Origin: Bacteroidota bacterium
GTDB taxonomy: Bacteria > Bacteroidota > Bacteroidia > Chitinophagales > Chitinophagaceae
NCBI GenBank assembly: GCA_013288285.1
Contig: JABDCE010000001.1
Location: forward strand, 32,134 to 85,602
Direction: 5' to 3'
Length of the DNA: 53,469 nucleotides
Shown here: positions 22,559 to 37,659 of the stretch, in pieces
How the letters are laid out: each line of letters opens with the position of its first letter
How positions within the stretch are numbered: position 1 is the stretch's first letter
Made by a program: the position numbers and the translations under genes
Notes under the pieces: model-generated
What the model was told of the DNA's origin: nothing
What the model saw: the letters and a program-made list of their open reading frames with translations, nothing else
The model's database searches: none

Positions 22559-22580
22559 ACCAAAATAGTTTTTAAATAAG

Positions 22581-22609
22581 CAGGCGCCATCATCGGCGCC
22601 TGTTTTTTT
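22581..22609 (+). terminator. typA terminator
   Basis: A perfect 8-bp stem, CAGGCGCC and GGCGCCTG, with a 6-base loop is followed by seven T bases, 22 bp after the typA stop. Confidence 0.9.
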
Positions 22610-22688: not shown

Positions 22689-22717
22689 ACCCATCCTTTT
22701 AAACTATATTGCTGTCT
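22689..22717 (+). promoter_or_regulatory. Shared bipartite motif upstream of the first giant gene
   Basis: ACCCATC (22689-22695), a 16-base spacer and CTGTCT (22712-22717) start 93 bases before the ATG at 22782. The same pair with 16-17-base spacing precedes the giant genes at 27477 and 33741. The geometry fits a -35/-10 promoter, and GTC in the second half is typical of ECF-sigma -10 elements. CTGTCT also forms an inverted repeat with AGACAG at 22724-22729. No TAnnTTTG is found here. Confidence 0.55.
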
Positions 22718-22781
22718 TAAAACAGACAGGGTAGTCTGATCTGAGACTATTATTAACTAATGGTAATATAAAACAGTTGAC

Positions 22782-25700
22782 ATGAAAAAAATATATTCAC
22801 TGCTATTCCTTTTGACAGCGCTTGTTTTCACGGTTCCTGCCAATGCCCAGTTAGTTGGGGGTAATGTATATCTTCAGGGCCAGTGGCTGGAAATTGGTGA
22901 AATATCTAATGGGGCCATGGGAACTTGCGTGCCGCCTCCGGCATCGTATCATCCGCACTGTTCTTTTTGCGCCGGGGGAACAAATAACCTGGCTGAGGTA
23001 TATGACTGGGGGCACGATGGATGGGCGGTAGGTATACCACCCTACATGGGCGACTATACGAATCCCGGATTCCCATTCGAAGGTTGGGCGCTGGAAGTGA
23101 ACGGTTCTACCAATGAAGCATATCAGAACTATTGTGCAGGCGGATATCCGTGCTGCTCATTTTTTCCGTCAACACCAACCGGTACACTTACCGGAGGGCT
23201 TACGACCTATTCAAATTCAAGTGGTGTGATCCTGAGCAATTGGGCAGGAACTGCATCAAGCGGCAATCTTAAAATATTATCTGAAACCAGGGTAGATACA
23301 AATGCTTCCTGGGTGGTGTTTACTGTAAAGTTCTATAACACAAGCGCCTTACCGATAAACAATGTATATTATGAGCGTACCTGCGACCCTGATAATGAAT
23401 CGACTTGGTCTGGATTGCCAGGGTATACCGGGGCATACTCCACTACTGAAGACACTATTGTTTACCAGAACGACTGGGACCATAGGGTAATGGTTGCTGC
23501 CTATGGAAATTTCGGTTCGTTCAATAAAACAAATTCCTACATGGCTTTGGGCACAAAGGACTGCCGTGCTAAGTGCACTTACTTTGATGCGAGTCATGGT
23601 ACTGGTAATTTCGGAAGTTTACAACCTGGCTGGTCACCCGCAGATATATGGGCACAAACACCTACGACTTATGGTTATGCAGTTGGCACACATAATTATG
23701 CTGATGAAGGATATGGCCTCGTATTTAACCTGGGTACGATCTGCGCCAATGACAGCGCGGTGATCTCTATGGCATATATCTTCAATGGCGATAATGGTAT
23801 TGACAGCGCTTTCCCTGATCCGCTCATCAATGTGAACAATGGGTCGCAGACTGTCTATCCTACATTCCCGTATACTTTGCCTCCGTATAATTTCCCGGTT
23901 GATACGTTTGATGCATGTTTTTATCCGGGCCTTGACTCTATTCCGCTTAATGTTTTATTCGGTGGTGATAAAGGCTGGACCTGGAGTTCATGGACATGGT
24001 CTCCGAGCACGGGTTTGTCGGCTACTACAGGCCTCAATGTGTGGGCGTATATCAATTCCATTCCCGGATCGGTTACCTATACTGTTACCGGTACGGATAG
24101 TTTTGGCCCCGGCTGTAATAATAATCCTTGTCTGAATAAAACGTTTATTTTCACTATTAAATCCTGCCATTCTGCGAATAACAACAGCCCATGCTTTGGT
24201 GATGCATTAATGTTCGGGATGACAGGAGAATCGCTGGGTGCGACGTACTACTGGTATGGCCCTAATAAGTTTACGAGTTTTGTGCATGATCCGGTCATCT
24301 ACCCTGCGGTGCTGGGCGATACCGGGGTATATTATGTGATCAAGACAATTGGCGGCATTAGTGATACGGACAGCACCGTGGTGGTTGTACATCCTAAACC
24401 TACCCTTGTAGTATCTGATAACTCACCGATGTGCGCAGCCTCTATAGATACACTGAATCTTAGCGCAACGCCATTCACCCCTGGCGAGAGCTTTGCCTGG
24501 ACAGGCCCAAGCGGGTATACTTCTAATGTAGAGTTCCCGAGCATAGACGGATTTATAGGCACGAATGTGGGAACCTACACCGTGGTGGCCACTACTTCAT
24601 TTGGCTGTAAGGACACCGGGTATGTAGCTGCCGCGCTCATACCGCAGCCATTGGCGCCAGTGATATCGGGGCCTAATGTTTATTGCCAATACACGCCATT
24701 TGTAGCATTCACTACATCGCCTGCAACAGGTATACTCTGGTATAATGTGGGTGCAGGCGGCACGCCAAGTACAGTGGCTCCGGTTGTCAACACGTCAGTA
24801 GTAGGTGTTACTACGGTATATGCCAGCCAGAAAACAGGTAGCTGCGAAAGTCCACGGGCATCTTATACAGTGACAGTTAACCCAACACCTCCAATCCCGG
24901 CAATAAGCGGGTCGAGGGCTGACTACTGCCAGTTCACTACAGATACGTTTGTATATGCAACGGTAACGCTTAGCGGCTCATCATACGCGCTGTGGTACAC
25001 TGCACCTACAGGCGGTACCCCTTCGCTGGCAGAAACAGCGGTGCCGCTGAACATAGCCGGCACTACCACCTTCTATGTGAGCCAGAAAGAAGGTAACTGC
25101 GAAAGCCCAAGGGCTCCGGTGACCATTACGGTGCATCCGAAACCATTGCCGCCAACACCGCCTATAGATTCTATATGCCAGTACTGGACGCCGGGAGCAT
25201 TTACGGCTACACTGAGCGAAACAGGCGATGTGCTGAAATGGTACAATGTGTATGATACCACCACACCATTTACTGTAACGCCTATACCACAGACACTTGT
25301 ACCGGGCGTAGACAGTTTCTATATCAATGAGGTGTCTGCTTTTGGCTGCGCAAGTAATATGAAGCTTGGGCTGTATACGGTGATACCGAAGCCTTCAGCG
25401 CCACTGACACGCGATACGATCTACTGCCAGTTTACAGCAGTACCGGCCCTGACAGCAGACAGCGCTGTGAACTCCAGGCTGAACTGGTACCTGGTGGGCA
25501 CCAAACTGCCGGGAGCCCCTACGCCTACGAATGCGATACCGGGCGACATTATCTGGTATGTGAGCCAGACAGTGCATACCTGCGAAAGTGACAGCCTGCC
25601 AATAAAGGTGACAACGATCTACAAACCGCAGTTCACGATAGCGGCCAGCAGCCCATATGTGTGCCAGTTCGATTCTATATCGCTGGCGTATAACGGGCCG

Positions 25701-26726
25701 GTGATCGATGACCCTTCATATGTATGGAGCCTCCCTGTGGGTGCCTTCTATGCAAGGGGGAAAGGCGTCATGTCAGAAGCAGGTATATCGTTACCGACCG
25801 ACTCTATGATATACGTTAAGTTCGATTCTGTGACACAGAACAACTATGTAGGCCTGCATGTTACAGACGATCATGGTTTCTGCGCAGGCGATACCACGCT
25901 GAGAATACGGGTAGTACCACAGCCAACCGGGGTATCAACAACCAGGGCTGATGTATGCGCAGGCGATACCGTGATACTGGCACTGGGTAATAAATCTCCA
26001 GGCGCATCAGACTTCACCTGGAAGGTAGATGGCGTGCCGATGGAAAGCTCAAGCGCGCTCTCGATCATAGCGCACAACAGCAACAGCGGCGGGCTGTTCA
26101 GCATCAGCTGGAACGACAGCGGACGGCACGTAGTAACTTTAAGCACCTCTACTGCTGAAGGCTGTTTGTCTCAGCCAACGGATGACTCTGTGGATGTGCA
26201 TACGTCCCCTGACGCAACGTTTGCCTTCACCACCAGGACCGGTGAGCTGTGCCTTGAAGATAGTGTGCTGTTTACGGCTACTACCAACAGATACAACAAC
26301 TCATACGTATGGGCGCCGGCTCACTTCTTTGCCAATGACAACAAGGCAGTGATATGGGGTAAGGTGGAACAGTTGCAGAGTATCATAACGCTGACGGTAA
26401 CTGATCCGTTCGGATGTGCGGCCTCATTCAGCCAGGAGATAGATCCGGGCACCTGCTGTACGGTTGCCTTCCCTACTTCGTTTACTCCGAGTGGAAGCAG
26501 CAATAAAGTGTTCAAGCCAATATATGTTGGCTACCACAGATTCCATGTATTCCGTATTGAGAACAGATGGGGACAGACAGTGTTTGAGTCAACCAACAGC
26601 AATATGGCCTGGGATGGCGGATATAATGGAGTGCCACAGGAAACGGGTGTGTACTTCTATTACCTGAGCTATGACTGCGGCGGTAACACTATAGAAAAAC
26701 GCGGCGATGTAACGCTGGTAAGGTAA
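22782..26726 (+). CDS. Giant secreted multi-Ig-like protein with CHU_C (T9SS type B) domain
   Basis: A 1314-residue exported protein. Residues 1-22 are a signal peptide ending ANAQ. Residues about 23-375 form a unique N-terminal domain (GNVYLQGQWLEIG, DWGHDGWAVG) shared with the giant protein at 33741. Then come many Ig-like or PKD-like repeats of about 80 residues with the pattern YCQ, LWY, SQ, CESPRA, TVTVNP. The last 88 or so residues are a CHU_C domain (FRIENRWGQTVFES, WDGGYNGVPQETGVYFYY, GDVTLVR), the type B sorting signal of the type IX secretion system. The CHU_C opening FTPSGSSNKVF departs from the usual FTPNGDGxND. It probably acts as a surface adhesin or filament. A small secreted protein gene follows 37 bp later. 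Confidence 0.9.
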   Translation: MKKIYSLLFLLTALVFTVPANAQLVGGNVYLQGQWLEIGEISNGAMGTCVPPPASYHPHCSFCAGGTNNLAEVYDWGHDGWAVGIPPYMGDYTNPGFPFEGWALEVNGSTNEAYQNYCAGGYPCCSFFPSTPTGTLTGGLTTYSNSSGVILSNWAGTASSGNLKILSETRVDTNASWVVFTVKFYNTSALPINNVYYERTCDPDNESTWSGLPGYTGAYSTTEDTIVYQNDWDHRVMVAAYGNFGSFNKTNSYMALGTKDCRAKCTYFDASHGTGNFGSLQPGWSPADIWAQTPTTYGYAVGTHNYADEGYGLVFNLGTICANDSAVISMAYIFNGDNGIDSAFPDPLINVNNGSQTVYPTFPYTLPPYNFPVDTFDACFYPGLDSIPLNVLFGGDKGWTWSSWTWSPSTGLSATTGLNVWAYINSIPGSVTYTVTGTDSFGPGCNNNPCLNKTFIFTIKSCHSANNNSPCFGDALMFGMTGESLGATYYWYGPNKFTSFVHDPVIYPAVLGDTGVYYVIKTIGGISDTDSTVVVVHPKPTLVVSDNSPMCAASIDTLNLSATPFTPGESFAWTGPSGYTSNVEFPSIDGFIGTNVGTYTVVATTSFGCKDTGYVAAALIPQPLAPVISGPNVYCQYTPFVAFTTSPATGILWYNVGAGGTPSTVAPVVNTSVVGVTTVYASQKTGSCESPRASYTVTVNPTPPIPAISGSRADYCQFTTDTFVYATVTLSGSSYALWYTAPTGGTPSLAETAVPLNIAGTTTFYVSQKEGNCESPRAPVTITVHPKPLPPTPPIDSICQYWTPGAFTATLSETGDVLKWYNVYDTTTPFTVTPIPQTLVPGVDSFYINEVSAFGCASNMKLGLYTVIPKPSAPLTRDTIYCQFTAVPALTADSAVNSRLNWYLVGTKLPGAPTPTNAIPGDIIWYVSQTVHTCESDSLPIKVTTIYKPQFTIAASSPYVCQFDSISLAYNGPVIDDPSYVWSLPVGAFYARGKGVMSEAGISLPTDSMIYVKFDSVTQNNYVGLHVTDDHGFCAGDTTLRIRVVPQPTGVSTTRADVCAGDTVILALGNKSPGASDFTWKVDGVPMESSSALSIIAHNSNSGGLFSISWNDSGRHVVTLSTSTAEGCLSQPTDDSVDVHTSPDATFAFTTRTGELCLEDSVLFTATTNRYNNSYVWAPAHFFANDNKAVIWGKVEQLQSIITLTVTDPFGCAASFSQEIDPGTCCTVAFPTSFTPSGSSNKVFKPIYVGYHRFHVFRIENRWGQTVFESTNSNMAWDGGYNGVPQETGVYFYYLSYDCGGNTIEKRGDVTLVR

Positions 26727-26763
26727 TTTCAATCAATTAAATTGTAAACTAAAAACAAGAACA

Positions 26764-27150
26764 ATGAAACGCGTTTTGATCATATCGAGTCTGCTGGTAC
26801 TTGCGGCCACCGGCGCCAAAGCACAGAGTTACCCGCCACCGGCATCAAAAGCGGGCTTCTCCGCAAAAACAAACCTGCTCAACAGTGATATAGCGGCGGG
26901 GAAGATCACCAATGCTAATGCAGATATGGACAGCCTGTACCTGATGATAGGTTCGCAGATACAGAATTGCACGTTCAAGATACAGGTGGCTGCCAGCACA
27001 GGAAATACAACTGCAACCGCTGCTGCTCAAAAAAACATGGCCGATAAGACCACTATTTATAACGACCTGAAAACCCTTACCAGTAATGTGGTGGCCAACC
27101 AGGCGAAAATAAATACCGATCTGAGCAATTTCCTGGCTATAATGGATTGA
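26764..27150 (+). CDS. Small secreted companion protein, function unknown
   Basis: A 128-residue exported protein with a signal peptide (residues 1-20, ending ATGAKAQ). The mature part is about 107 residues, Ala/Thr/Asn-rich and predicted mostly helical: FSAKTNLLNSDIAAGKITN, then NMADKTTIYNDLKTLTSNV. It has no T9SS sorting domain and only one Cys (C54). I recognise no family. It lies 37 bp after the first giant CHU_C gene and is followed at once by a strong terminator, so the two are very likely one operon. A role as a chaperone, subunit or anchor of the giant protein is possible but is inference. Confidence 0.75.
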   Translation: MKRVLIISSLLVLAATGAKAQSYPPPASKAGFSAKTNLLNSDIAAGKITNANADMDSLYLMIGSQIQNCTFKIQVAASTGNTTATAAAQKNMADKTTIYNDLKTLTSNVVANQAKINTDLSNFLAIMD

Positions 27151-27174
27151 TGCCGGAGCAATGAAAATAATAAG

Positions 27175-27200
27175 AAGGGCGTCTAACGGCGCCCTTTTTT
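27175..27200 (+). terminator. Terminator of the first giant-protein operon
   Basis: AAGGGCG (27175-27181) pairs with CGCCCTT (27190-27196), followed by T bases. It lies 24 bp after the stop of the small secreted gene. The rest of the 326-bp spacer (27151-27476) holds the inverted repeat and shared motif listed below and no supportable gene. Confidence 0.85.
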
Positions 27201-27321
27201 GTGTTACGGAGGGTGCCATTGCTATATGTAAATAAGGTATTTTTGTTTTGTTCGGTTAATAAATCAGAAAATTTCATTAATTGGTAAGTGTTGCGGGTTC
27301 TCAAAACCTTGCCAGTATAGG

Positions 27322-27372
27322 AAAACAGATGGGTTATTAAATAAAAAATGTGTAAAAATACCCATCTGTTTT
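27322..27372. repeat. 13-bp inverted repeat overlapping the shared promoter-like motif
   Basis: AAAACAGATGGGT (27322-27334) and ACCCATCTGTTTT (27360-27372) are perfect inverted arms with a 25-base gap. The right arm contains the ACCCATC half of the shared motif. This could be an operator for a dimeric regulator, or it could place ACCCATC in both orientations. The other two motif copies lack a 13-bp partner. Confidence 0.6.
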
Positions 27373-27389
27373 TACTATATTGCCTGTCT
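27360..27389 (+). promoter_or_regulatory. Shared bipartite motif upstream of the second giant gene
   Basis: ACCCATC (27360-27366), a 17-base spacer and CTGTCT (27384-27389) start 117 bases before the ATG at 27477. The spacer also shares CTATATTG with the copy at 22689. This is the second of three copies. Confidence 0.55.
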
Positions 27390-27476
27390 TTATATTACAA
27401 AGGGACAATCTCTCCCGCATATCGTTTGTAATTAAAGAAAAAAAAGTATTTTTAGAGCCTGATTCAATAAAGTTTT

Positions 27477-30275
27477 ATGAAGAGATCATTACTGTATATC
27501 GTTACTCTATTACTGCTGCTGGGAACTAATTTTATGGCTAATGCCGGTTTTCAAAAGATATCACAACTAACCGGCCCTGCTGGGACTACAACATATCCGG
27601 GAGGAGTAGTTGTAACGGCATCTCTCTTTAGTTGTGGAGCTTACCCCGATGTTACGGGCCCCGCTTGCGTCGGGGGGCCATCAGGCGGTGAGTATGTAAT
27701 TGGCATTGGCTCGTGTCCCGGTTGGATCGAGTATACATTTACCGGCAGCCAAACAGTATATGGTATTCACATAATCAGCGCCAATATCAATACGGGTGAA
27801 GACCTGGAGGTGGGCTATAATGCATTTTATTCCGGAGGCCTGACCCCCGGCCATTATGCAATACAGCCGTCTGACCTTACCGGCTTAGGATTGAATACCT
27901 GCCCCGGCCCTTCATCGGGACCAACTACTATAGGCCCAGGTACCGGCGGCGCGCCAGGCTGCATATTGGGCCCCGGCTGTTGCCCCTTTGGCGCCAGCAG
28001 CCCATTTAACGGCGCAGAATTCATAGTACGTGATTGCGCGGGTATGAGCAGCTTTACGGTGTACTCCAACGGTTTTTCCGGCGGTGTAGATTTCGAGATC
28101 TATTTTGATACGGTGCGGCCAGCAGGCTGCTCTAATGCTATAGCCAACAGCCCCTGCGAAGGCGACACCCTGAAGCTGGGTGACAGAGGCGACTCTACCA
28201 ACCCCACCATCGCTACTTATCTGTGGACAGGACCTGGATCGTTTAGCAGCACAGAACAATACCCTTTTATATACCCATCATTTGTGGGGCAGTCGGGTAC
28301 TTATACAGTATACAAAACACAGGGCTTTGTAATAGATACAGATACTGTAGTAGTAGTAGTGCATCCGCGCGCTTTCATCACTTCGGCTACTTCAAACTCA
28401 CCCATATGTGTAAATCCTGCGGATACACTGCATCTGCAGGCGTTAGTACCCGGCCTTGTGCCCGGAGAAACGTTTATGTGGACAGGGCCTAACCTTTTCA
28501 CATCTACCTTGCAGGATCCGGATATCTATGGTTATGTAGCGTCAGATTCCGGCACGTATTTTGTCACGGCCACTACACCATTCGGGTGCTCGACGTCGAG
28601 TTCCACCTATGTGGTCACGCTTCCGCCTCCGCTGCCACCTACTATCATTGGGCCTACCCCGTATTGCTATGGCGATCCGTTCGTTCCGTTCACTACTACC
28701 GGCGTAGTGCCGGGGGCTGCGGTACTTTGGTACACAGCGGGCACCGGTGGCGTAGGGTCTACCACGGCTCCTACCATCAACACGAGCGCACCAGATACTA
28801 CGTGGGTGTTTGCCAGCCAGAAGCTGGGGTATTGTGAAAGCGTCCGCGATTCTGAACAGATAGTAGTGCTGCCGCAGATAAAGCCGAGCTTTACCTGGGA
28901 CCTGCTGCTGGGGTGTGACTCTAACGTAGCCACCTTCTTTAACACCAGCACAGCTGCTGACTGGTATAGCTGGAACTACGGTGACGGCGGCACATCGGGC
29001 GATACCACAACGAGCCTGATAACCCGTCATGATTATGTGACCAACCGTGTCTTTGCGGTAACGCTTACCGGCTATATACCGGGTTGCCACCAGTCTGTGA
29101 CGGGCTATGTAAACGCCACCCATGCCAACAATCCGTTCTTTACACTGCCGGATAGTATTATGTGCGCGGGGCAAAGGACTACGCTTAACGATAGCACGAC
29201 TACTGTAGACGACAGCAGTATCATCACACAACCTGATGGCGGCCTGGCCGCGCTGAAAGGAAGCTCTGCTACGGTGGATACGGGCCTGCATTTCACAGAC
29301 CCGCATGCCCCGAGCTACTTAGGCGCCCTCTATGCATGGGATTTTGGAGATGGCCAGACTGATCTTACCAATACGCGCACACCTCCTGCACATCATTACG
29401 ATTCGGGCGGGCATTATACCATCAAGCTTACTTTAACGGATTCGATAGGTTGCGTGGCGACGTATACCCAGCCGATAAATGTGCTGGAGCTGACATCTAC
29501 AAATCTGCATGATACTATGCTATGTGTCAGCCAGGACCTGCCACTGCATGCGTACTTCAAAGCAAATGTGCGCCTGAACATATTTGAGAATACATATACC
29601 TACACCTGGACGCCGCCTACTTATCTGTCGGACACCAGTATAGCGAATCCATACTATACCTTCAAAGGCGCGGCGACGACCACCTATACCATTACCGTGG
29701 CGCAACCACAGTATGGCTGCTATACCACAGATACTATGAGGATACAGTCGGTATTAGGCGTAAAACTGGCTAACCTTACCTCTGATGCTACCATCCTGTA
29801 TGGCAGGAGTATTCAGCTGAATGCAGACAGCGAGGTATACTACTACTGGAGGAGAGATAACGGAACGCTTAATGATCCGAATATCAGTAACCCTGTAGCT
29901 ACGCCGTTGGTAACAACTATGTATACGGTGTTTGGTTATGATAAGAATGGCTGTGTGGATTCGGCTAACATTAACATAGTAGTGGACAGCTCGATGATAG
30001 AGAATATACCTACCGGCTTCACACCGAATGGCGATGGGCTTAACGATGTGTTCCGTCCGATAGGCATCAAGTTCCAGACGATGGTAGACTTCAGGGTATA
30101 CAACAGGCTGGGGCAGCAGGTGTTCTACTCCAATAATTACAAGCAGGGCTGGGATGGTACGTTTAACGGCCAGCCGCAGGATATGGATACTTACTTCTAC
30201 GTAATAATAGTGGCGAGACCGGGAGGAGATGGAGAGAATGTGATCTATAAGGGATCGGTGACGCTGATAAGATAA
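27477..30275 (+). CDS. Giant secreted PKD/Ig-like protein with CHU_C (T9SS type B) domain
   Basis: A 932-residue exported protein with a signal peptide ending ANAG (about residue 23). The N-terminal domain (to about 215) includes GGEYVIGIGSCPGWIEYTF and FTVYSNGFSGGVDFEIYFD and is related to that of the next giant protein. Ig-like repeats follow (AYLWTGPGSF-type cores, one CESVRD repeat). Two PKD domains are marked by WNYGDGG (about 498) and WDFGDGQ (about 620). The CHU_C domain from about 840 opens with the canonical FTPNGDGLNDVF and ends YKGSVTLIR. It is probably exported by the type IX system and surface-anchored or released. It carries its own copy of the shared upstream motif. Confidence 0.9.
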   Translation: MKRSLLYIVTLLLLLGTNFMANAGFQKISQLTGPAGTTTYPGGVVVTASLFSCGAYPDVTGPACVGGPSGGEYVIGIGSCPGWIEYTFTGSQTVYGIHIISANINTGEDLEVGYNAFYSGGLTPGHYAIQPSDLTGLGLNTCPGPSSGPTTIGPGTGGAPGCILGPGCCPFGASSPFNGAEFIVRDCAGMSSFTVYSNGFSGGVDFEIYFDTVRPAGCSNAIANSPCEGDTLKLGDRGDSTNPTIATYLWTGPGSFSSTEQYPFIYPSFVGQSGTYTVYKTQGFVIDTDTVVVVVHPRAFITSATSNSPICVNPADTLHLQALVPGLVPGETFMWTGPNLFTSTLQDPDIYGYVASDSGTYFVTATTPFGCSTSSSTYVVTLPPPLPPTIIGPTPYCYGDPFVPFTTTGVVPGAAVLWYTAGTGGVGSTTAPTINTSAPDTTWVFASQKLGYCESVRDSEQIVVLPQIKPSFTWDLLLGCDSNVATFFNTSTAADWYSWNYGDGGTSGDTTTSLITRHDYVTNRVFAVTLTGYIPGCHQSVTGYVNATHANNPFFTLPDSIMCAGQRTTLNDSTTTVDDSSIITQPDGGLAALKGSSATVDTGLHFTDPHAPSYLGALYAWDFGDGQTDLTNTRTPPAHHYDSGGHYTIKLTLTDSIGCVATYTQPINVLELTSTNLHDTMLCVSQDLPLHAYFKANVRLNIFENTYTYTWTPPTYLSDTSIANPYYTFKGAATTTYTITVAQPQYGCYTTDTMRIQSVLGVKLANLTSDATILYGRSIQLNADSEVYYYWRRDNGTLNDPNISNPVATPLVTTMYTVFGYDKNGCVDSANINIVVDSSMIENIPTGFTPNGDGLNDVFRPIGIKFQTMVDFRVYNRLGQQVFYSNNYKQGWDGTFNGQPQDMDTYFYVIIVARPGGDGENVIYKGSVTLIR

Positions 30276-30303
30276 ACGAAGGAAAAATAGTATGAAGATC
30301 GTG

Positions 30304-30332
30304 ATCCCCTGCTATTTTGAATAGTGGGGGAT
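30304..30332 (+). terminator. Probable terminator of the second giant gene
   Basis: ATCCCC and CTATT pair with AATAG and GGGGAT, giving a long stem with a two-base internal loop and a 3-base TTG loop. The following ATTATGTTATT is T-rich but not a clean T-tract, so efficiency is uncertain. Confidence 0.55.
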
Positions 30333-30345
30333 TATGTTATTAGGT

Positions 30346-30374
30346 GAGCATGTTGTTTTACGTTTCTCATGCTC
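30346..30374. repeat. 7-bp inverted repeat upstream of the third giant gene
   Basis: GAGCATG (30346-30352) and CATGCTC (30368-30374) are inverted arms with a 15-base gap. They lie 60-90 bases before the start at 30433. This gene lacks the ACCCATC/CTGTCT motif, so these arms may mark a different control site. Confidence 0.35.
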
Positions 30375-30432
30375 TTGTAATTTTTAGGGAATTGTGATAA
30401 TATATAAGAAAATATAGCTAACTTTATAGTCA

Positions 30433-33400
30433 ATGCCATTTAATATGAAGCCCTTGTTAAGAATGATCATATTGCTGCTGCTTACAGCGGCAAGCAGCAG
30501 TGCACAGTGCATAAACATAACACAACCCAAAGGGCCGGATACGCTTTATGGTACTTACGATGTAGCGGTAACCACTACAGGCTCTACAGGTCTGGGCGGT
30601 ACACCGGGTTGTTTCCCTTCTTATCCGCTTACCTTCTGGGCGGCCCCAGGCGCCCCCGGGAGTTTCATATTTACATTTGCCAAGCCGGTGTACGAAATAA
30701 AGGTGGAATCCTGGGGGATGGATGGCCCTACCCCATTGGAATTCCTCCGTTTCAATATGAATGGCACACATTTCTTTCTTACTCCGCCTAATGTGCTTTC
30801 TTATACAGAGTGCCTGGCCTCTGGTGGGCCATGCACACTTAGTGGTGGCGATCTGTATGCACCCTCTACCGGTGGTGACGGCGCAGACCTTGTTTTTGAT
30901 AATGGCACCGGGATATATACATTTGAAGTGTATTGTAATGGCGGGCATCTGGGAGTTGTTTTTGATCTGTGCATAGATACCACGATGCCGGCTACGAACA
31001 ACGGTCCTATGTGCGTGGGCAGTACACTGAGCTTAGTAACACATAATGCCGACTCGGCAGGTGCTACCTACTATTGGTGGGGCCCGGGTAGTTTTTCTTC
31101 GACCACGAAAAATCCGTTCAAGACAGGTATGACCGTGGCAGACGCAGGCAGGTATTGGGTGGCATGGTCTGTACCTGGCCACCTTGATGATACAGCCTAT
31201 ACCGATGTGGTTGTAAATCCATTGCCCACCATTGTACTTACGAGCAACTCGCCTATTTGTTACCCCGCAGGCAGTATACTGGATCTTTACATGAACCCTT
31301 ATTCTATCGGGGAAACATTTTCATGGAAAGGCCCTGCGGGCTTCACTTCTACTGTTGAGAACCCCGTGCGTATGTCATTTATCAATATTGACACAGGGTA
31401 TTATACAGTAACGGTCACCGATAGCAATGGATGTGTGAATAAGGACAGCACACATGTTGCGTACGCACCAATACCACCTTCACCTGTCATCAGCGGCACT
31501 ACAGTATATTGCCAGGGTGACGCGTTTATTCCGTTTACTGCAATAGGGAGCGGCATATTGTGGTATACCGTACCAACTGGCGGTACCGGCAACCCAACCT
31601 CGCCTACAGTAAATACTGCTGTGGCCGGAATAACAACAGAATGGGCGACACAGACGATAGCAGGCTGTGAAAGCCAGCCACCGAGAGCCACTATAACAGT
31701 AACAGTAAATCCTACGCCGGCTATGCCCACTGTTACCGGCACCAATACTTACTGTCAGTTTGATACCTATGTGCCGCCTACTGCGACAGGAACCAGTGTT
31801 TTGTGGTATACTGCGCCTACCGGTGGTACAGGCACATTAACTCCGCCAAGCGTGAGTACAGCCACCCCCGGTACGTATACAATATATGCTACGCAGACTT
31901 CGGCATTAGGTTGCGAAAGTGCGCGTGCTGCTTTCGTCATCACAGTAAATGCAAAGCCATCGCCACCGATACTTGTGGCCAACCCGAGTACTTATTGCCC
32001 CGGACAAACCTTTCAGCCATTCACCATCATATCGGGCATAGGGCTGCTGTATTATACAGCGCCTACGGGCGGCACCGGCACTGCTATAGCGCCCATCATC
32101 AATACCCTGATACCCGGTGTGTATAACGAATATGTGAGCCAGACAGTACTGGGTTGTGAAAGTAACCGCACAACAATGACCGTAACGGTGATAGACAATG
32201 TAACGGCAGGTTTTAATTATACCATAAAGTACGGTTGTATCGCTGATACTGTAGTGTTCCATAATACATCAACCGGTACTATCAATTATGCGTGGAAATT
32301 CGGGGATGGTTTTTCTTCGATCGAGGATAGTCCCGTGCATGTGTACCAGGTGCAGGCGCAGGATACCGTAACTCTTTATTCGAGTGTGGCGAGTTGTATA
32401 GACAGCAATACGCAATACATTAACCTGGTGCATCCGCTGCATGCGTACTTTACCGAAGACACAGACCTGATATGCCAGGGTGGCAGTGTTAGTTTTGCTG
32501 ACTCTTCATCAGTAGGTACAGGCATCAGTTATCTGTGGGAGTATGGCGACAATGTGCTGCATCCACCGGTAACTACAACTACAACGTCGCATATATACCC
32601 GCAGGCTGGCATGTATAAGGCGTACTTAGTGGTAAAGGATTTCAGACCGTGTACGGATACGATGTACAAAATAGTGATGGTAGATACAATAAGCGGCATA
32701 TCAGTAGCGCTGACAGATACGGTTATCTGCCAGGGTACGTATGTGACGTTCACAGGGTCGTATGCGAGCCTGGGTAATACGGGGGTGACGTGGACCCTGG
32801 GAGATGGTGACAGCATTAAAAATGTAAACCCACTTGTATATGGCTACCAGCAGCCGGGCGTATATAACGTAAGGTCGGAAGCTATTTACAGAGTTTGCCC
32901 GGATACCAGCGCCCACCGCAAAATAACTGTGATAGCGCAGCCCAAGATGGACCTTGGCCCTGATGTCTCTATCTGTAAAGGCAGTGTTTCCATAACGCTG
33001 GCAGATAATGTAAATGCCGGTAATCCTGTAGCTACCTGGATGTGGAACACTGGCGAAAAAACATCTTCGATTGTGGTTGTAGCGCCGGGTGTATATTCCT
33101 CTACTGTGCGAATCGGCGGGTGTGAAGCATCAGCATCGGTAACTGTGAAGAACGATTGCTACATGAATATACCCAACGTGTTTACACCAAACAACGACGG
33201 TGTCAATGATTATTTTTACCCGCAGCAATACCTGTCCAGCGGTCTTATATCTTTTAACATGACGATATACAACCGCTGGGGCGAACTGGTTTTTAAAACC
33301 AACTCATTGGATGGCGCCGGCTGGGATGGTAAATTCAATAATGCAGACCAGCCTGAAGGTGTATATGTGTACCTGATAGATGGCGTGTTTAAAGACGGCC

Positions 33401-33441
33401 AGCAGGAGCATCACCAGGGTAATGTGACATTGCTGAGGTAA
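30433..33441 (+). CDS. Giant secreted Ig-like/PKD protein with CHU_C (T9SS type B) domain
   Basis: A 1002-residue exported protein; the signal peptide ends ASSSAQ at about residue 25. An ATG at 30445 is an alternative start. The N-terminal domain (to about 185) resembles that of the preceding giant protein (TFEVYCNGGHLGVVFDLCIDT against TVYSNGFSGGVDFEIYFDT). Ig-like repeats follow, including three units with the YCQ, LWYT-PTGGTG, CES pattern. Three PKD domains are marked by WKFGDGF (about 619), WEYGDN (about 699) and WTLGDGD (about 785). The CHU_C domain begins near 910 with canonical FTPNNDGVNDYF and ends GNVTLLR. It is the only one of the four giant genes without the shared upstream motif. 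A perfect terminator hairpin follows. Confidence 0.9.
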   Translation: MPFNMKPLLRMIILLLLTAASSSAQCINITQPKGPDTLYGTYDVAVTTTGSTGLGGTPGCFPSYPLTFWAAPGAPGSFIFTFAKPVYEIKVESWGMDGPTPLEFLRFNMNGTHFFLTPPNVLSYTECLASGGPCTLSGGDLYAPSTGGDGADLVFDNGTGIYTFEVYCNGGHLGVVFDLCIDTTMPATNNGPMCVGSTLSLVTHNADSAGATYYWWGPGSFSSTTKNPFKTGMTVADAGRYWVAWSVPGHLDDTAYTDVVVNPLPTIVLTSNSPICYPAGSILDLYMNPYSIGETFSWKGPAGFTSTVENPVRMSFINIDTGYYTVTVTDSNGCVNKDSTHVAYAPIPPSPVISGTTVYCQGDAFIPFTAIGSGILWYTVPTGGTGNPTSPTVNTAVAGITTEWATQTIAGCESQPPRATITVTVNPTPAMPTVTGTNTYCQFDTYVPPTATGTSVLWYTAPTGGTGTLTPPSVSTATPGTYTIYATQTSALGCESARAAFVITVNAKPSPPILVANPSTYCPGQTFQPFTIISGIGLLYYTAPTGGTGTAIAPIINTLIPGVYNEYVSQTVLGCESNRTTMTVTVIDNVTAGFNYTIKYGCIADTVVFHNTSTGTINYAWKFGDGFSSIEDSPVHVYQVQAQDTVTLYSSVASCIDSNTQYINLVHPLHAYFTEDTDLICQGGSVSFADSSSVGTGISYLWEYGDNVLHPPVTTTTTSHIYPQAGMYKAYLVVKDFRPCTDTMYKIVMVDTISGISVALTDTVICQGTYVTFTGSYASLGNTGVTWTLGDGDSIKNVNPLVYGYQQPGVYNVRSEAIYRVCPDTSAHRKITVIAQPKMDLGPDVSICKGSVSITLADNVNAGNPVATWMWNTGEKTSSIVVVAPGVYSSTVRIGGCEASASVTVKNDCYMNIPNVFTPNNDGVNDYFYPQQYLSSGLISFNMTIYNRWGELVFKTNSLDGAGWDGKFNNADQPEGVYVYLIDGVFKDGQQEHHQGNVTLLR

Positions 33442-33459
33442 AGCAAAAAGAAATAATAA

Positions 33460-33496
33460 AAATGTCCCGCATAGTAGAAATGCGGGACATTTTTCG
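33460..33496 (+). terminator. Terminator of the third giant gene
   Basis: A perfect 13-bp stem, AAATGTCCCGCAT (33460-33472) and ATGCGGGACATTT (33480-33492), has a 7-base loop and continues into T bases. It lies 18 bp after the stop. Confidence 0.92.
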
Positions 33497-33564
33497 TTTT
33501 GAGCGACTATACATGCAAATGACCGTCAGTGAATGGCAGATACTTACATATATGTAAAGAAAAT

Positions 33565-33593
33565 ACCCATCCTTCTCGTGTTTTTAACTGTCT
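33565..33593 (+). promoter_or_regulatory. Shared bipartite motif upstream of the fourth giant gene
   Basis: ACCCATC (33565-33571), a 16-base spacer and CTGTCT (33588-33593) lie between the preceding terminator and the gene. The base run before it (AAAATACCCATC) matches the copy at 27360 at every position. This is the third of three copies. Confidence 0.55.
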
Positions 33594-33740
33594 GTTATTA
33601 GCAGGGAACAGATATTCAGTTCGCATTTTATTTCTCGCATTATTTTTTTTGCAGAACAAAAAAAACATGTATATTTATAGTGAGACGTTATGTGCAGTAA
33701 GATGAAAAATTATTTTTTTGAAAAATCAATGAGCACGAGT

Positions 33741-36700
33741 ATGAAATTTCGTTACTTACCTTTTCTCTTATCAATTGCTGTACTATTCGGCAATGGCGCT
33801 TCGGCGCAGTTAGTAGGCGACAATGCATTTATGCAGGGCCAATGGCTGGAAGTAGCTATTGCACCTAACGGTTCGTGGGGCAATAGTGTGAACGTGCCTG
33901 CGGGATACCACACACGTGGAAGTGCCAGTACTTCTTATACAGATCCGGGCACTGGTACTACACCGACAGGAAATGGTATGGATTTTTCTTTTGACCAGGG
34001 GCATGATGGCTGGACAGTAGGTACAGTGCCATGGGTGGGTTCTTATTATCTTCCCGGTACACCTTTTGATGGCTGGTCCGTTCAGATTGACGATACAATG
34101 GGCAGTGCTTTTTACACAGATGCCGGCTATAATACTTCTGAAGGTGGTATCTTTTCAGGCACGGTGGATAAATACATCGGGCCTTCATGTATAGACCCTC
34201 ATGCAGCTATGGCAGGTATCTTTCATGGTACTTACGGATTGAAGAGAGCGGGTTTAAATACCGCTATGCAGATAGAACAGGTAAACGAGGTAGACACGTT
34301 TGCATCTTGGTTGAATGTGACCACCAAATTCAGGAATACAACTGATTCCACACTTAAAGGTGTTTATTATTTTGCCAGCGCCGATCCTGATAATGATGTT
34401 TCTATAGGAGGAACCTATAGTACACATAACCACATTGCGTATCAGGGTGGACCTCTCAATGAACATGAAGTATGGGCTCGTCCGCCTTCTACTCACCAGG
34501 ATGCATTTTCAGGGCTGGCAACACAAGACTGTCGTGCCAAGGTGCTTATTTATTCATCGTGGCCGCCGAGTATGACGCCGGGGAATAACCTGGACCTTGT
34601 ATATGCCGGCACACCTACAGCAATGGGCTCAACCTATTATACCCTGGGGGCTACAACATTAGCAGATATTGCGTACGCCGTTGTTTTTAACATTGGCAAC
34701 ATAGCGCCACATGACAGTGCAGTTATTACCTATGCCTGGATATTTTCAGATACTACCGTAGTGGATAGCCTTTTTGGCCTGTCGCCCAAATTTTCTGCAG
34801 AAGGCAAAGTGATCACTAACGGTCACTCTGATACCGTTTTGCAATGTACTATGTCGGGTTGCAATATTACCAGCGACACTACATTTATTGCTACTGTGCT
34901 GAATGGCGAGAACCGCAACTGGGGGCTGAGTACATGGACATGGTCACCAGCCATCGGCTTGTCATCTACATTAGGCACGTCACCTACTATCAATTTCAAA
35001 AAGCTGGCGGGGCCGGTAACCTATACAATAACAGGTACTCCATTCGCCAGATTTGGCAATTGTAATCCTTCTCCCGCGCCGGTAACTTTTTACTTGTATG
35101 CACAACCATGCTTCAGTGCATCCAGTAATATTCCGTGCGAAGGGGATACCTTATTTCTGATCGGTACCGGAGATACAACGGGCGCTACATTCGCCTGGTC
35201 GGGGCCGGGAGGATATACCGGAACAGGCGAATCGACTTTCCGGTTTCCTATAGCGCTGGGTGACACCGGTATTTACCGCCTCATAAAAACAGTCGGCTCT
35301 TATCCCGATACCGTTTATACACATGTGGCGAAAATAAAGCCTTTGCCTAAAGTGGTGGCCGGCAGCAATAGTCCTATATGTTCGGGAGGCACACTATCGC
35401 TTAAAGCTACCTCAATAGATCCGTTGGAAACCTATCTATGGAAAGGGCCGAATACTTTTGCCTCCGTCTTGCAAAATCCACCGAGATTAGCAGTTACTGT
35501 TAGCGACTCAGGTAAATACTGGGTGTATACACAACTCAACGGATGTAATGATAGCGGCTACACAGATGTAGTAGTAGATTCTACGCCCGCAGTGCCTAAG
35601 CTCTCCAGCTTCTCATCGCCGGTATGCTCGCAGCACCCGATAACACTTACAGCGAATGACGTTACCCCTGGTGTGTCTTATAGCTGGTCCGGCCCTAATT
35701 CATTTACATCTACGTTAAAGAGCCCGTTCATCGCCTCTGAAAATATGCAGTTGCCTGCTGGAGCCACTGCAAGCTTTGGCACCTACAAAGTGGTGGTGAA
35801 ACTTACAGATGCTTCAGGCCATTACTGTCTTGACTCCAATACACTTGTGGTAGAAGTGGACTCAACGCCTGTGTTGCCTGTGCTGACTACTAATGCACCA
35901 GTGTGCAGCGGTACCCCACTGAGCATGACAGCAACGAGCCTTGCCGGTTCGACGTATAACTGGTCAGGCCCGATAGGGTTTACGTCGACTACGCAAAACC
36001 CGACTATACCTTATTCTATCACGGCCAATACAGGTATATACTCTGTGACCGCTACGTATGTTTACCCGGCTATTAGTTGCACGTCGGCTGTTGCCAGCAT
36101 TTATTCAGAGGTAGACTCTACGGCATTGATACCAAATGCTACCAGCAATTCTCCCGGTTTCCCTGGTGTGAGCATCTGCCAGGGTGATACACTGAAGCTG
36201 TATTCCAGTGATTCGACACATGGAGTGAGCTATACGTGGATAGGAGCTAATTCATTCGGGTCTACCCAGCAAAACCCATACATAGTTAATGTATTGCCTG
36301 CTGCTACTGGTTCTTATACTGTACAGGCAACCCTTGGGTTTGGCTGCATATCGCAGGCGATCATTACCGTGAGCATAACACCTACTCCACCGCTTACCGC
36401 TACCAGCAACAGCCCGGTATGTTCCGGCAATCTGGATTCTCTGTTCTTACAGGCAGTCAGCGGTCCGGGTGCGGCATTTAGCTGGACGGGGCCTTATAAC
36501 TTTAGCTCTAACCTATCGAATCCAAGCCGCAGCCCTGTGCTTACCGAGTACGATGGTATCTATACGGTGACGGCATTGCTTGATGGGTGTTACGCGACTA
36601 TTAATGATACTGTAGTGATCAATGAAACGCCGCCGGCTCCGTGGACGAAGTGGCTTACATTCTGCCAGTATTATCTGCCTGATCCGCTACAGGCAGCAGG

Positions 36701-37607
36701 ATCTAATATCCTGTGGTATCCATCCAGCCTGCCGCCGCTTAAGGGAAGTCCGGTAGCGCCTATACCGAATACAAATATTGTAGCGGAGACATTCTACTAT
36801 GCCACACAAACGGTGAAAGGTTGTATCAGCGCTATGGATTCTATGAAAGTGACAGTGTATCGTTCTCCGAAGGTGACGGTGTCGCCTGATGTATCTATTT
36901 GTCCGCGTGATACCGCTACGATAACAGCGAAGGATACCGATCAGATAGCTTATTACAACTGGTCCCCTTCTATTTACCTGAGCGATACCAATGCGTCATC
37001 AATACTTATACGGCCAGAAACCAATGTGCGCTATACAGTAGTAGTGACCAATATGTTTGGCTGTACGGATACTGCACAGGTGAATGTAACCGTAAAGGCT
37101 GGTGCAGTGCTGAGCTTGCCCGATTCGGCTATTATTTACCCCGGCGAAACCTACCAGCTAAGCCCGCAGACCAACTGCGAGGCATTCCGCTGGACACCAT
37201 CTGAGGGACTTAGCAGCGCCTATATATCCAACCCGGTGGCCTCTCCGCTGGTGAACACCAAGTATATAGTAACGGGCGTATCCAGCTCCGGTTGCCGCAC
37301 GTCCGACTCGATAGATATTTATGTAAGCACAGAGTCGTTGCTTGCGGTGCCTAATGCGTTCTCGCCAGGCAACGGCCCTAACGGTTTATTTAAGATCATA
37401 AAGAGAGGTATCGCTACTTTGAAAAACTTCACTATCTACGACCGGTGGGGTGTGAAGGTGTTTGAGACAAGCGATATAGACGCAGGCTGGGATGGCACGT
37501 TCAATGGGACGCCACAGCCATTCGGGGTATATGTGTACGAGATAAATGCAGTGACCAGCGCCGGTACAACGTTCATCAAGCACGGCAACGTAACTTTGGT
37601 GCGCTGA
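33741..37607 (+). CDS. Giant secreted multi-Ig-like protein with CHU_C domain, paralogue of the first
   Basis: A 1288-residue exported protein if it starts at the ATG that directly opens the signal peptide (KFRYLPFLLSIAVLFGNG, ending ASAQ). In-frame ATGs at 33690 and 33729 are alternatives. The N-terminal domain (NAFMQGQWLEVA, QGHDGWTVG) is clearly paralogous to that of the gene at 22782. The middle is made of Ig-like repeats with YSWSGPNSFTSTL-type cores and one YCQ/LWY-type unit late (FCQYYLPDPLQA, NILWYP). The CHU_C domain from about 1199 opens with the degenerate FSPGNGPNGLF and ends HGNVTLVR. It is predicted to be a T9SS-exported surface protein. It has the shared upstream motif and a perfect terminator. 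Confidence 0.9.
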   Translation: MKFRYLPFLLSIAVLFGNGASAQLVGDNAFMQGQWLEVAIAPNGSWGNSVNVPAGYHTRGSASTSYTDPGTGTTPTGNGMDFSFDQGHDGWTVGTVPWVGSYYLPGTPFDGWSVQIDDTMGSAFYTDAGYNTSEGGIFSGTVDKYIGPSCIDPHAAMAGIFHGTYGLKRAGLNTAMQIEQVNEVDTFASWLNVTTKFRNTTDSTLKGVYYFASADPDNDVSIGGTYSTHNHIAYQGGPLNEHEVWARPPSTHQDAFSGLATQDCRAKVLIYSSWPPSMTPGNNLDLVYAGTPTAMGSTYYTLGATTLADIAYAVVFNIGNIAPHDSAVITYAWIFSDTTVVDSLFGLSPKFSAEGKVITNGHSDTVLQCTMSGCNITSDTTFIATVLNGENRNWGLSTWTWSPAIGLSSTLGTSPTINFKKLAGPVTYTITGTPFARFGNCNPSPAPVTFYLYAQPCFSASSNIPCEGDTLFLIGTGDTTGATFAWSGPGGYTGTGESTFRFPIALGDTGIYRLIKTVGSYPDTVYTHVAKIKPLPKVVAGSNSPICSGGTLSLKATSIDPLETYLWKGPNTFASVLQNPPRLAVTVSDSGKYWVYTQLNGCNDSGYTDVVVDSTPAVPKLSSFSSPVCSQHPITLTANDVTPGVSYSWSGPNSFTSTLKSPFIASENMQLPAGATASFGTYKVVVKLTDASGHYCLDSNTLVVEVDSTPVLPVLTTNAPVCSGTPLSMTATSLAGSTYNWSGPIGFTSTTQNPTIPYSITANTGIYSVTATYVYPAISCTSAVASIYSEVDSTALIPNATSNSPGFPGVSICQGDTLKLYSSDSTHGVSYTWIGANSFGSTQQNPYIVNVLPAATGSYTVQATLGFGCISQAIITVSITPTPPLTATSNSPVCSGNLDSLFLQAVSGPGAAFSWTGPYNFSSNLSNPSRSPVLTEYDGIYTVTALLDGCYATINDTVVINETPPAPWTKWLTFCQYYLPDPLQAAGSNILWYPSSLPPLKGSPVAPIPNTNIVAETFYYATQTVKGCISAMDSMKVTVYRSPKVTVSPDVSICPRDTATITAKDTDQIAYYNWSPSIYLSDTNASSILIRPETNVRYTVVVTNMFGCTDTAQVNVTVKAGAVLSLPDSAIIYPGETYQLSPQTNCEAFRWTPSEGLSSAYISNPVASPLVNTKYIVTGVSSSGCRTSDSIDIYVSTESLLAVPNAFSPGNGPNGLFKIIKRGIATLKNFTIYDRWGVKVFETSDIDAGWDGTFNGTPQPFGVYVYEINAVTSAGTTFIKHGNVTLVR

Positions 37608-37625
37608 TCATACAGACAATAATTG

Positions 37626-37659
37626 AAGAGGTGCGACATGATCATGTCGCACCTCTTTT
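37626..37659 (+). terminator. Perfect 32-bp palindromic terminator
   Basis: AAGAGGTGCGACATGA (37626-37641) is followed directly by its exact complement (37642-37657) and then T bases. It sits between the convergent fourth giant gene and the ParA gene and may serve both, though the T-tract is better on the plus strand. Confidence 0.9.

Follow-up and report, generated by a model that had tools for sequence, protein, structure and literature searches.

Giant surface protein genes and the element upstream of them

The stretch of DNA analysed here (the window, 53,469 nucleotides from a Chitinophagaceae bacterium of the phylum Bacteroidota) contains four giant genes, three of which are preceded by a two-block element, ACCCATC-N16/17-CTGTCT. 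From its sequence context we predict that this element is a promoter for an extracytoplasmic function (ECF) sigma factor. Pfam CHU_C, a sorting signal of the type IX secretion system (T9SS), was above cut-off in all four genes, and the NCBIfam type B sorting model was above cut-off in three of them (the gene at 22782 was below it, 27.5 vs 35 bits). The elements and the giant genes are as follows.

22689..22717, + strand: element 1, ACCCATC-N16-CTGTCT, predicted ECF promoter; profile 26.2 bits, matrix score 22.4
22782..26726, + strand: giant surface protein, 1314 aa, Ig_7 and CHU_C
27360..27389, + strand: element 2, ACCCATC-N17-CTGTCT; profile 24.8 bits, matrix score 16.8
27477..30275, + strand: giant surface protein, 932 aa, PKD and CHU_C / type B sorting domain
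30433..33441, + strand: giant surface protein, 1002 aa, CHU_C; without an element of its own
33565..33593, + strand: element 3, ACCCATC-N16-CTGTCT; profile 27.8 bits, matrix score 18.8
33690..37607, + strand: giant surface protein, 1305 aa, Ig_7 and CHU_C

The original prediction, made from the letters of the window, named three copies with spacers of 16, 17 and 16 bases. A search for ACCCATC-N14..19-CTGTCT bore this out, giving exactly three matches on the + strand of the window and none in 100 dinucleotide shuffles. Between the elements and the start codons at 22782, 27477 and 33690 lie 64, 87 and 96 bases, respectively, and all three elements are outside open frames of at least 100 aa. In a full-model profile scan of the window they scored 24.8-27.8 bits, being members of the training set, and everything else scored at most 7.6 bits. 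The flanking bases said to be shared are visible in the three upstream sequences, and the element is indeed absent at 30433 (matrix score 1.4, no profile match). In the counterparts of element 2 in two other genomes, G008 and G017, both half-sites are intact. The genome that holds the window (G000, 57.7% complete) has no fourth exact copy.

The original prediction also stated that these genes lack a clear TAnnTTTG. Within 260 bases of the four giant genes there is one exact copy, at -239 of 27477 and upstream of element 2; none lies between an element and its gene. A phage origin of the first leader was considered and rejected, as a search of a phage collection gave no match.

Recurrence of the element in Flavipsychrobacter

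Among 35 genomes of the genus, 23 contain the exact element with a spacing of 16 or 17, in 39 copies altogether; the reversed pattern was found 7 times. Thirty-three copies lie outside frames of at least 100 aa, and every one of these is upstream of an ATG whose product looks like a signal-peptide protein. The other six are inside such frames, yet one of them (G095:C77, in a 119-aa frame) is 133 bases before a signal-peptide gene of the same N-terminal type, which brings the targets to 34 of 39 copies. Twelve targets are complete with 917-1424 aa, two are small (152 and 335 aa), and 20 are cut by the end of the available DNA, 11 of these already having at least 917 aa; frames of at least 917 aa are thus found in 23 of the 34. 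The idea of a regulon of large surface proteins with members elsewhere is therefore supported at the sequence level. A wider scan of 40 genomes with spacers N14-19 also gave matches in two genomes of other families (G033, G035), both inside frames.

A similar promoter upstream of a core ECF sigma gene

The genome of the window has nine Sigma70_r4_2 matches, five above cut-off. One gene, encoding a 191-aa protein on the - strand (G000:C16:20091-20663), is called the core sigma here. Pfam Sigma70_r2 and Sigma70_r4_2 were both above cut-off in it, so that regions 2 and 4 are present, and its best NCBIfam match, Sig70_bacteroi1, was below cut-off. The full gene was found in 29 of 31 genomes of the genus at an identity of at least 78%; G006 has a fragment and G015 (65% complete) has paralogs only. 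Besides Flavipsychrobacter, orthologues occur in the neighbouring genera Taibaiella and Edaphocola.

About 60 bases upstream of the start of the core sigma gene lies ACCCAACCATTTAGAAAATGAAACAGTCT. All 29 orthologues in the genus have ACCCAACC-N15-NNGTCT (ACCCAAC-N16-NRGTCT) upstream, constant in place and spacing, and the two bases before GTCT are C plus a purine in 26 of them, TG in two and GA in one. We collected 80 sigma loci, 79 with upstream DNA, of which 61 fit NCCAACC-N13..18-GTCT and 78 fit CCAAC-N17..19-GTC(T); the presence of CCAAC in 78/78 follows from how these promoters were collected. GTCT is followed by A or T in 78/78 sigma promoters and in 32/34 cargo sites, and the -35 block by C in 61/78 and 27/34, respectively. 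The sigma-gene promoter is very similar to the element before the giant genes, and the two differ as a rule at the sixth -35 base and at the base before GTCT.

The element shows three features expected of an ECF promoter: a pair of blocks separated by 16-17 bases, a GTC within the -10 block, and a fixed orientation upstream of the gene. They support the ECF type that had been proposed for it.

In two related genomes a second ACCCAACC...CTGTCT, upstream of the sigma gene, leads a secreted protein of 133-147 aa (L070:2861-2923 and L072:2855-2917, both - strand).

A matrix from sigma promoters finds sites before type B cargo genes

A two-block matrix was trained only on the 78 sigma promoters in order to avoid circularity, and was used to score 400 bases upstream of type B genes (TIGR04131). 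There are 18 such genes in G000, 23 in G016 and 29 in G012, of which 16, 22 and 17 were scored; the rest were at contig ends or, for 12 in G012, left out, and these 12 include six on contigs C55 and C92, which are known to hold elements. A score of at least 13 was reached by 5/16 genes in G000, 10/22 in G016 and 3/17 in G012. In G000 and G016 together this is 15/38, vs 1/277 background genes from the same and neighbouring loci (Fisher p about 1e-14); with G012 it is 18/55, and without the three window genes 12/35. The single background hit is, by eye, secreted and propeller-like. Antisense scores of at least 13 were absent (0/16, 0/22 and 0/17), the reversed controls gave 0, and the reversed background gave 1/277. 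The enrichment was significant at all thresholds tried, from 10 to 16. The comparison has a small asymmetry, since cargo starts were picked with signal peptides in mind and background starts were the first start. In an earlier run, on loci picked in part because they had the element, the antisense and background counts were higher, and that run was set aside. Enrichment before secreted-protein genes, which the original prediction implied, is seen both in these numbers and in the 34/39 exact copies, and nothing in them refutes it.

The T9SS machinery genes sprA and gldK were rejected as targets, as no site of at least 13 was found before either (0/5 loci each). One score of 13.5 (L332) lies inside gldK, before gldL, and is without GTCT. 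A general signal for T9SS cargo was not supported either: none of the 11 type A genes scored in G000 reached 13, these 11 being the scorable ones among the best 30 of 111 matches. Two type A genes outside the 11, on contigs C27 and C23, do have sites. With 111 type A and 18 type B sorting-domain matches at 57.7% completeness, G000 has a very large secreted repertoire.

The gene after the core sigma gene

The sigma frame was recognised, with at least 1,500 bases beyond it, at 73 sigma loci. At all 73 the gene that comes next codes for a protein that has 224-1036 aa and is hydrophobic around residue 50. This protein typically starts with MDKNxINIDDLVRQRL, and the shortest one (224 aa) seems truncated. 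The copy in G000, on which alone the full anatomy was checked, has 785 aa and a tether of about 400 residues that is nearly free of aromatic residues. In its AlphaFold2 model there are helices at 27-38 and 47-75, disorder up to about residue 473, and barrel-like strands at 572-776. The per-residue confidence (pLDDT) is mostly at least 90 in the barrel block, and the mean is 55 because of the tether. No Pfam or NCBIfam family was above cut-off for the partner; a profile of the partner alignment gave a weak match to the Opa60 barrel (E 0.00025), alongside matches of the low-complexity tether. The partner is a predicted anti-sigma factor of the Dma type, which would span the envelope, with one end in the cytoplasm, a helix across the inner membrane and a barrel in the outer membrane.

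Transcription units of the giant genes

The remaining features around the giant genes are the following.

22578..22605, + strand: hairpin resembling an intrinsic terminator, after the BipA-like gene and ahead of element 1 (fold and terminator scan)
26764..27150, + strand: 128-aa open frame after the first giant gene, without Pfam or NCBIfam match; possibly in the first transcription unit
27172..27199, + strand: hairpin whose 3' arm contains a T-run, after the 26764-27150 frame and ahead of element 2 (fold)
30300..30336, + strand: strong hairpin without T-run, -23 kcal/mol, between the 27477-30275 gene and 30433; read-through possible
33458..33494, + strand: hairpin ahead of element 3 whose 3' arm contains a T-run (fold)
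37625..37658, + strand: terminator-like hairpin after the last giant gene (terminator scan)

A hairpin with a T-run stands between each element and the preceding gene. For those at 27172-27199 and 33458-33494, whose T-runs form part of the paired stem, the terminator scan therefore reports a terminator on the - strand alone. Judged from the DNA, the hairpins suggest three transcription units. As a T-run hairpin precedes each element and none precedes 30433, the latter gene may be read from element 2 (27360), and the three elements may in this way serve all four giant genes.

Variant elements and further matches

The variant ACCCAWC-N16/17-CNGTCT had 47 matches in 11 of 12 genomes, and the reversed pattern had 29. 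By context, 10 of the 47 belong to core sigma genes, 23 to large and 2 to small secreted proteins, and 1 is unclear; the remainder are 7 matches inside frames and 4 that overlap a hairpin before a gene for a PQQ-like lipoprotein. In these four (L107, L109, L095 and L110, from four genomes), ACCCAACT...NGTCT (ACCCAAC...NGTCT) overlaps the hairpin and T-rich DNA follows, which may be a coincidence or possibly a promoter inside a terminator. They were left out of alignment A2, as were L089 (downstream frame 77 aa) and most redundant sigma copies; the alignment and profile R1 use 40 of the 63 upstream sequences.

For further matches of profile R1 we read 25 surroundings. Sixteen are before secreted-like or lipoprotein starts (G000:C5:3484, G016:C57, G012:C9, G013:C6 and G002:C1:29693 are among those before secreted genes), two are ambiguous (G004:C55, G004:C49), and seven are unconvincing as members on context. 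The latter are G008:C95, where the gene 282 bases downstream resembles an enoyl-CoA hydratase gene, and G002:C1:1143148, G008:C418, G008:C185, G013:C13, G009:C33 and G000:C23:20204.

In the cultured Flavipsychrobacter stenotrophus, where 8 of 10 matches were read, the exact element precedes one large secreted protein, and variants precede three more, a 168-aa protein and the sigma gene; the matches L347 and L367 are unconvincing. A sigma gene or secreted products follow 3 matches in Taibaiella soli (6 of 7 read), 4 in strain LGM1 (6 of 7 read) and 2 in Edaphocola flava (3 of 3 read). One profile match in strain LGM1 (L360, G092) is 213 bases before a gene for a 346-aa protein that by eye is like PorP/SprF, a T9SS helper.

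Interpretation of the element

The element, its spacing and orientation, the type B enrichment, the sigma-gene promoter, the gene pairing and the partner anatomy were all obtained by computation. As the probable explanation of these observations, we propose that the element is an ECF promoter and that the core Das/Dma-like sigma drives both its own gene and the genes for giant type B T9SS surface proteins. ACCCA(T/A)C would then form the -35 block, the -10 block would consist of GTCT and adjacent bases, and the spacer from ACCCAWC to CNGTCT would be 16 or 17 bases long. The core 191-aa ECF sigma would be the most likely reader. A change at the outer membrane or the surface would alter the barrel or tether of the partner, its cytoplasmic end would then release the sigma, and the released sigma would raise its own level and the expression of the giant-protein genes. 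Recognition by the core sigma, autoregulation, release by the partner and the signal are what we infer from these observations.

Several results weigh against this explanation. The window copies have T as the sixth -35 base (ACCCATC), and among the 18 cargo sites that score at least 13 this base is A in 14 and T in 4. In these sites the base before GTCT is a pyrimidine in 18/18, and in the sigma promoters it is a purine in 68/78. Since the exact search required ATC and CTGTCT, the 39 copies alone cannot prove that both forms are one class. The 34 signal-peptide calls come from a rough regular expression and may include background matches, and 23 of the 38 type B cargo genes stay under a score of 13. 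At 27477 (-51) and 33690 (-41), the interval from element to gene contains a looser sigma-A-like match, TTG-N18..21-TAnnTTT. Finally, a similar ACCCAAG...CGTCT is found further upstream in one paralogous sigma group.

The systematic difference at two bases lowered our confidence in the core sigma as the reader and raised that in an alternative, in which the element is still an ECF promoter but a paralogous ECF sigma reads the form that it takes at the giant genes, with ATC at -35 and T or C ahead of GTCT. Candidates are at hand, as each of the 31 genus genomes has 4-16 matches to the core sigma, itself included, and one paralog group has ACCCAAG...CGTCT upstream. However, none of the 24 paralogous sigma genes examined has ACCCAWC within 400 bases upstream, and the motifs seen there by eye are different (CTAACATTT...CGCCTAT, CTAACAATT...CTCGTCT and CAACCTTT...GCATATATTA in L132-L151, L112, L113 and L116). 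Where an exact copy has a target (34 copies), that target is never a sigma gene. The C after the -35 block and the A or T after GTCT agree with the core promoter, and the core-promoter matrix finds cargo sites. T is also present before GTCT in 8 sigma promoters, among them those of Edaphocola, which carry CTGTCT, so this lineage tolerates T there. The purine of the sigma genes and the pyrimidine of the cargo genes may possibly be a built-in difference in strength or specificity. Overall, we regard a paralogous reader as rather unlikely, though to be taken seriously.

Two other explanations were given much less weight. The element could serve as an operator bound by a transcription factor or belong to a 5' RNA element, with initiation elsewhere; the distance to the start codon varies from 23 to 426 bases, and two of the three elements have a looser sigma-A-like match on their downstream side. 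The fixed orientation, the 16/17 spacing, the ECF-like GTC, the very similar sequence before an ECF sigma gene and, within the window, the lack of an exact TAnnTTTG in the interval from element to gene make this very improbable. It is more improbable still that the copies are merely stretches inherited along with paralogous giant genes. Many targets do have an LVGDNxFLQGxWLE-like N-terminus, so that the copies are not all independent, but similar elements also precede the sigma gene, the 152-aa and 335-aa proteins and, by eye, beta-propeller or repeat cargo, and in the aligned leaders of three counterparts spacers and flanks vary while both half-sites are intact.

A sister element, ACCCAAG...CGTCTATTATA, was found upstream of a paralogous sigma (202 aa, - strand) in two genomes (L114, L115). 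It also precedes a 436-aa gene of the window's own genome (L117:14907-16217, + strand) with a match to the type A sorting domain. This sister code fits a broader and tentative idea, which we regard as less likely than not: T9SS cargo might be divided among surface programmes, and each programme might have a Dma-type sensor, an ECF sigma and a promoter code to itself, ACCCAWC-N16/17-CNGTCT being one such code, for giant type B proteins. The sensor barrel would then report the state of the surface that the giant proteins build.

Comparison with known systems

The sigma/anti-sigma class is already known. For the present promoter, and for control of T9SS cargo by a Dma-type sigma, no report was met in a literature coverage without most subscription journals. 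The available text of PMC12596196 is on other ECF sigmas of Bacteroides thetaiotaomicron, and that of PMC9308784 has nothing on the present element. The results suggest that one switch turns on a set of exported surface proteins. If this is true, T9SS cargo, and not the machinery alone, is under a dedicated switch. For a class of envelope-spanning anti-sigma factors with little-known signals and targets, this gives a testable chain from predicted sensor to sigma, promoter and targets. The motif also allows candidate regulon members to be listed in any genome of the group, including that of the cultured F. stenotrophus.

In the Das/Dma pairs of B. thetaiotaomicron (ECF21), the anti-sigma is described as starting in the cytoplasm, crossing the membrane with a single helix and continuing as a long disordered tether to a barrel in the outer membrane at its C-terminal end (PMC13088901); in EcfO/Reo of Bacteroides/Phocaeicola, Reo is described as extending through all compartments to the surface (PMC13114119). 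As in these systems, the ECF sigma gene here adjoins a gene for a predicted anti-sigma, with the same predicted anatomy. The likeness is one of pairing and anatomy. The regulons reported for these systems are NigD proteins, vesicle production and polysaccharide loci (PMC13088901, PMC13114119), whereas the regulon inferred here consists of giant T9SS type B proteins. The portions of these two papers that we had contain no promoter motif for the Das/Dma group.

SigP with PorXY of Porphyromonas gingivalis is likewise an ECF sigma tied to type IX secretion, but it is described as acting at machinery genes, with another motif proposed (PMC4800418, seen in part). The targets here are cargo, in keeping with the sprA and gldK loci, five each, that have no site of at least 13. 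In Flavobacterium psychrophilum, the SM6 promoters have a CGT box as their -10 block and are also ascribed to ECF sigmas, and one is at a sigma/anti-sigma pair (PMC9723704, seen in part). According to the same text, SM6 is found at machinery genes such as gldN and porU, and the remFG-sprCDBF adhesin operon uses two other motifs. Like SM6, the present element is a predicted ECF promoter; the targets found for it are T9SS cargo genes.

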